Below are positions 2,095 to 4,090 of a stretch of 64,000 nt of DNA, one piece after another (within the stretch, counting starts at the first letter, position 1; each line of letters starts with the position of its first letter). The stretch comes from Gammaproteobacteria bacterium. Its GTDB lineage: Bacteria > Pseudomonadota > Gammaproteobacteria > Eutrophobiales > Eutrophobiaceae. The notes beneath the pieces were generated by a model that had not been told where the DNA came from, ran no database searches, and saw only the letters and a list, made by a program, of their open reading frames with translations. A program made the translations under genes and the position numbers. The stretch covers positions 62,001 to 126,000 of the forward strand of contig JAPOQU010000102.1 of the NCBI GenBank assembly GCA_026710545.1. Direction: 5' to 3'.

Positions 2095-2787
2095 TTACCG
2101 CATGCGCGGTCCGAACAGCGCCGTCCCGATCCTCACGATAGTTGCTCCTTCCGCGATGGCTGCCTGCATATCGTTGGTCATGCCCATGGACAAGGTGTCG
2201 ACCTGGCAGCCCGAATCGGAGAGCTGCTCCTGCAGCAGGCGCAGTTTCATGAACGCGCGTCGTTGCGCGTTGAAATCATCCGTAGGTGCGGGCAAGGCCA
2301 TGAGCCCTCTCAGCTTCAGCCGCGTCAGCGGCAGCAGGCGCTCCGCCAGTTGTGGCAGCTCCCCGGGATCAATTCCGGACTTGGAGGGTTCTGCATCGAT
2401 ATTGACCTGGATGCAGATATTGAGAGGAGGCAGATCAGGCGGCCGCGCCGCATGTAGCCGACCGGCGATTTTGCTGCGCTCAACGGAATGTACCCAGTCA
2501 AAATTTTCGGCGATCTGGCGGGTCTTGTTTGACTGGATCGGGCCGATGAAGTGCCAGGTCAGGGGATGCCCGCGTAATTGCTCGATTTTAGCCTGCGCCT
2601 CCTGGACCTGGTTCTCGCCGAAATCCGCAACGCCCAGTTGCGCCAGCGCCAGGATGTCGGCGGCAGTGCGGGTTTTGCTCACGGCGAGCAACCTCACGCT
2701 GCCGGGCTGCCGGCCGAAGCGTTGCTCCGCCTCTTTAATCTCCTTTTGTACGCATTGCAGGCGCTCATGCAGGTTAACACTGGACAT
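2095..2787 (-). CDS. yggS: YggS/PLPBP family pyridoxal-phosphate homeostasis protein
   Basis: This 230-residue single-domain PLP-binding protein has the fold of the alanine racemase N-terminal barrel. LLAVSKTR supplies the PLP lysine (K38), GENQVQEAQ and HFIGPIQSNK are family motifs, and SMGMTNDMQAAI with a phosphate-binding RIGTALFG lie near the C-terminus. Members buffer free PLP and influence amino-acid and keto-acid balance. It heads the yggS-proC-yggT run. A terminator hairpin just upstream separates it from pqqA. Confidence 0.95.
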   Translation of the reverse strand: MSSVNLHERLQCVQKEIKEAEQRFGRQPGSVRLLAVSKTRTAADILALAQLGVADFGENQVQEAQAKIEQLRGHPLTWHFIGPIQSNKTRQIAENFDWVHSVERSKIAGRLHAARPPDLPPLNICIQVNIDAEPSKSGIDPGELPQLAERLLPLTRLKLRGLMALPAPTDDFNAQRRAFMKLRLLQEQLSDSGCQVDTLSMGMTNDMQAAIAEGATIVRIGTALFGPRMR

Positions 2788-2817
2788 GGCGTAAGGTTAG
2801 CCGGAACGCAGGCAATA

Positions 2818-2842
2818 AAAAAGGGTCCAGAGGACCCTTTTT
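2818..2842 (-). terminator. Intrinsic terminator downstream of pqqA
   Basis: A perfect 11-bp stem (AAAAAGGGTCC / GGACCCTTTTT) with a 3-nt AGA loop ends in a U-rich tail in either direction. It lies between the pqqA stop (2864) and the yggS start (2787), so it should end the pqqA transcript and insulate yggS. Confidence 0.8.
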
Positions 2843-2863
2843 CATGCAACTTGTAATTATTAA

Positions 2864-2938
2864 TTACTTGTTGTTGATGTACATCGTAACTTCGAAACCG
2901 AAGCGGATGTCGCTGTATTCAGGAGTTTGCCAGTTCAT
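2864..2938 (-). CDS. pqqA: Coenzyme PQQ precursor peptide PqqA
   Basis: A 24-codon gene encodes MNWQTPEYSDIRFGFEVTMY followed by INNK. It has the PqqA hallmarks: an N-terminal W-x-x-P, a G-F-E-V-T-M-Y core with Glu and Tyr separated by three residues (the pair that PqqE cross-links), and a short polar tail. In the known pathway PqqD binds this peptide and PqqE, F, B and C convert it to pyrroloquinoline quinone, a cofactor of periplasmic dehydrogenases. A GGAGA ribosome binding site sits 7 nt before the ATG. It is monocistronic here, with a terminator after it and no pqqB, C, D or E anywhere in the window. Confidence 0.9.
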   Translation of the reverse strand: MNWQTPEYSDIRFGFEVTMYINNK

Positions 2939-2993
2939 TTTACTTTCTCCAATTGGTTGATATTAAGGGTTAAAACTTTGTTGCTTTAAATAA

Positions 2994-3010
2994 TGCAGGT
3001 TCCGTGCCAG
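2994..3010 (-). promoter_or_regulatory. Possible sigma-54 promoter of pqqA
   Basis: On the minus strand, CTGGCACGGAACCTGCA has the -24/-12 layout of sigma-54 promoters, with GG and GC separated by exactly 10 nt and a TGGCACG -24 box. It lies about 56 bp upstream of the pqqA start codon. The -12 element is CTGC rather than TTGC. Upstream DNA (3011-3150) is AT-rich, with room for an activator site that I cannot identify. Confidence 0.45.
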
Positions 3011-3160
3011 AATCGGTGCAATTTTTATAATTCCTTATTTATCGCTATTTATCAATGAGTTATACCGTCATGCAGGTAAAGGACAAATGTATGTGGTTCC
3101 GGCATGGTTCATAAAACTGGTTGTAATTATTCAAAATTCTGGTTGTTGCCAACCATTAAA

Positions 3161-3211: not shown

Positions 3212-4090
3212 TTAAGGAAACACTTCATCGGCCTGGAACACCGGGCCGTCCACGCAGACCCGTTGCATGGATGCCGCCCCGTTTTTATAAACGGGCACCG
3301 TGCAGCCTGCGCAACCCCCTACCGCGCAGGCCATGTATTCTTCCAGTGAAACCTGGCAGGGCAGGGAAAATTCCGCGGCCAGGGCGGCAACGGCCCGTAG
3401 CATGGGCGTGGGACCGCAACTGAATATCTCTACCTGCTGCCGTTGTTCCTGATCAAGCCCTGACAGCCAATGGCGGGCGAGGTCGGTTACGAAGCCGTCA
3501 TAACAACCGGCATAGCCCTGCCTGCTGGTGAGACGGCTGGCAATGCCCCAGTCCTCCAGCAGGGGCATGCAGGCGATGGCAGCGTCCGGGATTCCGTCGA
3601 CCATGATCCCTGAGGGCCTCGGGTTGAATGGAAATGGGATCTCGGAACCCAGGACGGCAAAAGGCGTTACGGTACCGGCCTGTTTCAACATGTGTTCGGC
3701 AAGGAACACCATGGGCGGTATGCCTACACCGCCCCCTATGAGCAAAGGGATATTCCGGTAACCCCGCAGTTTGAACGGGTTACCGATGGGGCCCAGCAGG
3801 TTAACGGTGTCACCGTTTCCCGCCCGGGCAAGTTTATCCGTACCCTGCCCGTGGACCTTGTACAGGATATCAATCCAGCCGGCGCCGGGGTCTGCCCGCA
3901 TGATCGACATCGGCCGGCGCATGGGCAGGTCTTCGTGGCAGCGCAGGTGAATAAAACTGCCGGGCAAGGCGCGCTCGGCAGTAGCGGGGGCTGCCAGGCG
4001 CAGGAGATACTGGCCGGCGGCCAGCGCCTGGTGTTGCAGGACCGCGGCGTCTTCGACAAAGATCGTGTCGCGGGTGTGCGGGTGGGGCAC
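3212..4090 (-). CDS. pyrK: Dihydroorotate dehydrogenase electron-transfer subunit (PyrK-like)
   Basis: This 292-residue protein has the ferredoxin-reductase layout of PyrK. RRPMSIM is the FAD-binding RxxS motif (about residues 58-64), IGGGVGIPPMVFLAE binds NAD, and a C-terminal [2Fe-2S] site uses CAVGGCAGC plus a later Cys in RVCVDGP. PyrK normally passes electrons from a class 1B dihydroorotate dehydrogenase to NAD. It is the last gene of the pyrR-pyrB-pyrC' operon, 3 bp after pyrC'. No pyrD lies in the window, so the partner must be elsewhere or the protein reduces another acceptor. Confidence 0.85.
   Translation of the reverse strand: MPHPHTRDTIFVEDAAVLQHQALAAGQYLLRLAAPATAERALPGSFIHLRCHEDLPMRRPMSIMRADPGAGWIDILYKVHGQGTDKLARAGNGDTVNLLGPIGNPFKLRGYRNIPLLIGGGVGIPPMVFLAEHMLKQAGTVTPFAVLGSEIPFPFNPRPSGIMVDGIPDAAIACMPLLEDWGIASRLTSRQGYAGCYDGFVTDLARHWLSGLDQEQRQQVEIFSCGPTPMLRAVAALAAEFSLPCQVSLEEYMACAVGGCAGCTVPVYKNGAASMQRVCVDGPVFQADEVFP

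Follow-up and report, generated by a model that had tools for sequence, protein, structure and literature searches.

The sole PQQ precursor gene found in this gammaproteobacterial genome, pqqA, lies next to the end of a pyr gene run and probably works in trans with remote PQQ genes, under a promoter design that joins a sigma-54 core element to an upstream palindrome and for which an NtrC-type two-component pair is the likeliest activator. Maturation of the PqqA peptide would occur in trans, through PqqD/PqqE, PqqB and PqqC, which are encoded by a remote set: pqqB plus a pqqC-D-E operon from which the original pqqA has been lost. pqqA and pqqCDE would be kept in step by a common design, a sigma-54 core promoter with TGGTT-N6-AACCA upstream, and the activator is most likely an NtrC-type response regulator (receiver, AAA+ and Fis HTH domains) encoded on contig C59 together with a HAMP histidine kinase.

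The pqqA gene and the remote PQQ genes

The window (the whole 64,000-nt stretch of DNA analysed) is C102:62001-126000 of genome G000, an assembly of 4.43 Mb in 129 contigs. ORF calling and PqqA profiles place pqqA (24 codons plus stop, MNWQTPEYSDIRFGFEVTMYINNK) on the minus strand at 2864–2938, with the start at 2938 and the stop ending at 2864. Its peptide scores 45.1 bits against TIGR02107 (NCBIfam; cut-off 20) and 39.7 bits against PF08042 (Pfam; cut-off 21.1), and its translation contains E16 and Y20 (GF-E-VTM-Y), the Glu-x3-Tyr pair that in PqqA becomes PQQ. A GGAG ribosome-binding site (2947–2950, minus strand), read directly, is found upstream of the ATG. The downstream neighbour is yggS (2095–2787, minus strand; TIGR00044, 230 bits) and the upstream neighbour encodes a PyrK-like FAD/[2Fe-2S] protein (3212–4090, minus strand) at the end of a pyrB-pyrC-pyrK run; both lie outside the proposed mechanism, the latter as a conserved synteny marker. 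3′ of pqqA is an intrinsic terminator hairpin (AAAAAGGGTCC-TCT-GGACCCTTTTT, then a T run; 2817–2843, minus strand, usable on the plus strand too) with a fold z-score of -4.3 and no equally stable structure in 200 shuffles, and comparable hairpins lie 3′ of pqqA in those genus members whose downstream sequence was covered. An Rfam search for regulatory RNA around pqqA gave sub-threshold matches only. The gene is not adjoined by pqqBCDE, a departure from the canonical pqqABCDE operon with pqqA directly upstream of pqqB-E. The original prediction, a 24-residue PqqA with E-x3-Y at 2864–2938 between yggS and the pyr run, followed by its own terminator and not by pqqBCDE, agrees with all of this: the coordinates are right (strand minus, both profiles over cut-off), pyrK-like, pyrC and pyrB genes lie upstream and yggS downstream, and the hairpin (2843–2817) ends in a T run.

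The peptide is identical in 6/7 genus genomes, codon differences among those six are all synonymous and the spacers flanking pqqA have diverged, which together exclude a chance ORF; pqqA is thus confirmed as a real, ordinary member of the PqqA family. The pyrK-pqqA order is kept in 7/7 genomes of the genus, whose members are probably sponge-derived bins, and in about ten further genomes from other genera of the family; among 80 named pyrK loci, pqqA follows pyrK in family members only, not in other gammaproteobacteria. pqqA copies in the family occur in four recurring neighbourhoods (gene names read by eye except where scanned): the pyr place (pyrK-pqqA), a position divergent from a histidine kinase/response regulator pair, a pqqABCDE operon, and a site near purK/phrB/dsbA-like genes. 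In five relatives a second, lower-scoring pqqE is adjoined by its own divergent pqqA (G015:C10, G018:C62, G024:C2, G028:C16 and G035:C88; MHWEDPAYCDLRLGFEVTAYVYVR in G028:C16), suggestive of an additional PQQ-like pathway gained by these genomes.

The remaining PQQ genes of G000 lie elsewhere. pqqB, pqqC and pqqD are found at the end of contig C52, with no pqqA nearby and beside genes that, read by eye, resemble those for tetrahydromethanopterin biosynthesis; pqqE is cut off where C52 ends and is found whole at the beginning of C37. PqqB, PqqC and PqqD each exceed their curated cut-offs, as does one PqqE protein (562.8 bits), giving a full cognate set. The ends of C52 and C37 (L007:14325-14831 and L006:1-507) share a 507-bp overlap (96.8% identical), with the break inside pqqD/pqqE; mixed strains in the bin are the apparent cause. 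In addition, a 175-bp repeat is present between pqqC and pqqD, with a second, inverted copy (91%) downstream of pqqE. Two PQQ_enz_alc_DH dehydrogenases exceed the family cut-off, and further quinoproteins match more weakly. The two best carry, as read by eye, the DxD residues of the lanthanide type, as known from lanthanide-dependent enzymes. With these genes the organism presumably makes PQQ. A search of the genome for pqqB-E, other pqqA copies and PQQ dehydrogenases had been proposed with the original prediction, which would have been refuted by a lack of pqqE; the search yielded pqqB-E, with PqqE present, two dehydrogenases and a single pqqA, so that this refuting outcome did not occur.

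pqqA was found once in the assembly, which is fragmented and might have a further copy in a gap, and once in each of the six other genus genomes. In 7/7 it is not linked to pqqE, and a single contig of G004 has 1.9 Mb between them. Since a single pqqA is accompanied by pqqB and pqqC-D-E elsewhere with no pqqA of their own, it is the required precursor gene and not an extra copy. The suggestion that this gene supplies extra precursor to a remote pqq operon therefore holds for the remote feeding and fails for the extra copy.

Promoter element and upstream palindromes

A sigma-54 -24/-12 element (TGGCACGGAACCTGC; 2995–3009, minus strand) is located 71 nt upstream of the pqqA ATG. This box (TGGCACG-N4-CTGC) has the -24 GG / -12 GC spacing of a sigma-54 promoter, is the best in the 64-kb window with a score of 10/11 (next best 9), and would be used by RNA polymerase-sigma54. 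It is conserved in the genus and precedes the majority of pqqA copies in the family: in the zone 40–160 nt from the start codon, boxes scoring at least 8 (of 11) are found at 80% of 64 pqqA copies of relatives vs 7% of 678 control ORFs.

Genus alignment revealed an enhancer-like palindrome (TGGTTGGCAACAACCA, TGGTT-N6-AACCA; 3140–3155, minus strand); 22 bp from it is a second, degenerate one (TGAATAATTACAACCA; 3118–3133, minus strand). The sites lie at the distance from the core (about 100–150 bp) of an upstream palindrome in a sigma-54 promoter. Paired palindromes in the family are mostly 22 bp apart; this is two helical turns, as expected for enhancer sites of a sigma-54 activator. Palindromes with at least 9/10 matches are present at 56/65 pqqA copies, whereas shuffled sequences average 0.8; in the genus both palindrome and box keep their position while the rest of the spacer has diverged. 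When the joint pattern GGTTN6AACC-N88..118-TGGCAYN6TGC was scanned over 58 genomes, all 13 matches were upstream of pqqA (one of these genes being partly masked by N), vs one match for the pattern read backwards. A pattern tied to the TTTTAACC stretch 3′ of the box, with fixed spacing required, gave no match. Sharing of an operon with pyrK, also considered for pqqA, is weakened by the presence of enhancer and promoter between the two genes and of the same promoter at pqqA copies elsewhere.

Perfect TGGTT-N6-AACCA sites are rare, with only eight in the 4.43-Mb genome. Three of them lie upstream of pqqA, pqqCDE and the C59 histidine kinase gene, and of these three only the pqqA and pqqCDE sites are accompanied by a correctly placed sigma-54 box, the pqqCDE element (TGGCACACTTTTCGC) being 51 bp before pqqC. 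The other five, several of them inside genes, have no convincing, correctly placed sigma-54 promoter. One of these five is located between two genes, for a PQQ dehydrogenase of the DxD type and for a cupredoxin-like protein (C60:39650; L256:5021-7752); with no -24/-12 box at the right distance, it was not counted as an additional promoter.

The candidate regulator and its distribution

C59 of G000 encodes a HAMP histidine kinase and an NtrC-type response regulator in which the receiver (PF00072), Sigma54_activat (PF00158) and Fis-type HTH (PF02954) domains are all over cut-off. These are the domains of NtrC/AtoC/PrsR-type activators, and the best NCBIfam matches of the candidate are AtoC and the PEP-CTERM response regulator. 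It differs from those activators in falling below every NCBIfam equivalog cut-off shown (AtoC, NtrC, LuxO, ZraR and others; the best, AtoC, at 375 vs a cut-off of 714 for the orthologue from G012), in its sigma-54-contact loop, where the canonical GAFTGA is replaced by GAFTSA in 19/41 and GAFTNA in 18/41 orthologue loci read (e.g. L079:6266-7669 for an altered loop), and in its association with pqqA. Orthologues have an almost invariant recognition helix, TRMALRYR, and the regulator is predicted to bind TGGTT-N6-AACCA.

About 20 family loci have the kinase/regulator genes divergently arranged with a pqqA copy, and in further families, too, the regulator gene is found near pqqA. In the genus, where this pqqA has been lost, the palindrome still adjoins the kinase gene (G000, G001 and G004); from its retention there, the pair may well control its own promoter too. 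In G000 the spacer between the kinase and L,D-transpeptidase genes (L251:8985-9243) contains two tandem palindrome-bearing repeats (GGGGACAGAATTAATTCTGTCCCC), as if substituted for the pqqA that relatives have at this position.

Motif and regulator, as defined within the family, were then looked for in 369 gammaproteobacterial genomes, with orthologues of the regulator in this class sample called at E below 1e-130. pqqA was found in 52 genomes, the regulator in 30 and both in 29, so that 29/30 regulator-bearing genomes also have pqqA (Fisher p about 1e-27, a value that overstates independence, the genomes being related). Among genomes whose pqqA upstream regions were read, palindrome plus box are present at a pqqA in 22/24 with the regulator vs 0/20 without it. 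Regulator-positive genomes of the family and class samples carry a mean of 2.1 pqqA copies, with 79/114 copies unlinked to pqqE, vs a mean of 1.2, mostly linked to pqqE, in regulator-negative genomes (contig breaks limit the linkage counts). The proposed system would thereby span some fifteen of the gammaproteobacterial families sampled. In G014 and G346 the regulator is present and pqqA was not detected. G195 has one of the weakest regulator matches (53%) and nine pqqA copies in a 2.6-Mb genome (loci L269, L306-L309, L311 and L314); those whose promoters were read have no palindrome.

Sigma-54/enhancer control could be real and yet depend on another enhancer-binding protein, with the kinase/regulator pair merely neighbouring pqqA in many genomes. 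In three family genomes (G013, G027 and G030) pqqA bears the signature but the search turned up no orthologue of the regulator; completeness is 87% and 79% for two of them, and G013 is listed as 100% complete. Relatives also encode other sigma-54 activators, with many first-look candidates per genome. Such an arrangement is nevertheless unlikely given the near-complete co-occurrence of regulator and pqqA, the way in which the promoter signature tracks the regulator across genomes, the palindrome that precedes the kinase gene even where the adjacent pqqA has been lost, and the near-invariant recognition helix. It is more doubtful still that the dispersed pqqA depends on transcription running in from the pyr operon or on a sigma-70 promoter, the sigma-54 box and palindromes being incidental: pqqA and pyrK point the same way and sigma-70-like hexamers occur in the 270-bp spacer upstream of pqqA, but the motifs hold their position although the spacer around them has diverged, recur beside pqqA in three or more other neighbourhoods unrelated to this one and are absent from genomes without the regulator. 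The further suggestion made with the original prediction, that the peptide feeds a different maturase, here taken as another radical-SAM enzyme whose product would not be PQQ, found no support and is highly improbable, since although pqqA is not beside pqqE and the genome has other radical SAM proteins (weaker matches to the PqqE profile, at least one of them MoaA-like), one PqqE together with PqqB, PqqC and PqqD exceeds the curated cut-offs, the E-x3-Y core is canonical in the sole PqqA available to PqqE, and pqqCDE has the same promoter design as pqqA.

Control by the NtrC-type pair remains the preferred reading, with the three signature-bearing genomes that lack a detected orthologue, G014, G346, G195 and the altered GAFTGA loop counting against it. 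This two-component sigma-54 system would probably switch precursor supply, one regulator firing all pqqA copies plus pqqCDE via TGGTT-N6-AACCA.

Relation to known PQQ systems

Methanol, alcohol and glucose dehydrogenases, lanthanide-dependent ones included, use PQQ as their cofactor, and to our knowledge the regulation of PQQ is poorly understood beyond a few models. The PqqA described here is like that of a canonical pqqABCDE operon in peptide length, in its E-x3-Y core and in scoring over both curated cut-offs; unlike it, this pqqA lies outside the operon, is the sole copy found in the genome and has its own sigma-54-type promoter. In Methylophilaceae a single pqqBCDE set is accompanied by 3 to 12 copies of pqqA (PMC4109929), and the family studied here is similar in having more pqqA than maturation genes and in pqqA not being tied to a single maturation set; in contrast, the present genus is reduced to one pqqA, and pqqA promoters of the family have a common signature. 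For the Pseudomonas pqq operon, a recent review ascribes control, as likely, to AgmR (PMC12997753). A dedicated regulator tuning PQQ production is a shared feature, but the review names AgmR and no sigma-54 activator, whereas the candidate here is an NtrC-type activator. No report of pqqA control by sigma54, RpoN, NtrC or a two-component system was found in the open-access literature; dispersed pqqA copies are known already, while NtrC-type sigma-54 control applied to PQQ supply, as proposed here, is previously undescribed in that literature.

A candidate regulator, a candidate DNA site and targets for PQQ control are thus obtained in one step, and TGGTT-N6-AACCA plus the -24/-12 box offers a simple sequence test for unannotated pqqA genes. 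A common promoter design would explain how a lone pqqA anywhere in the genome could still be co-expressed with the enzymes that act on its product. If this is true, a lineage may scale the amount of precursor through gain and loss of pqqA copies, leaving the enzymes untouched.
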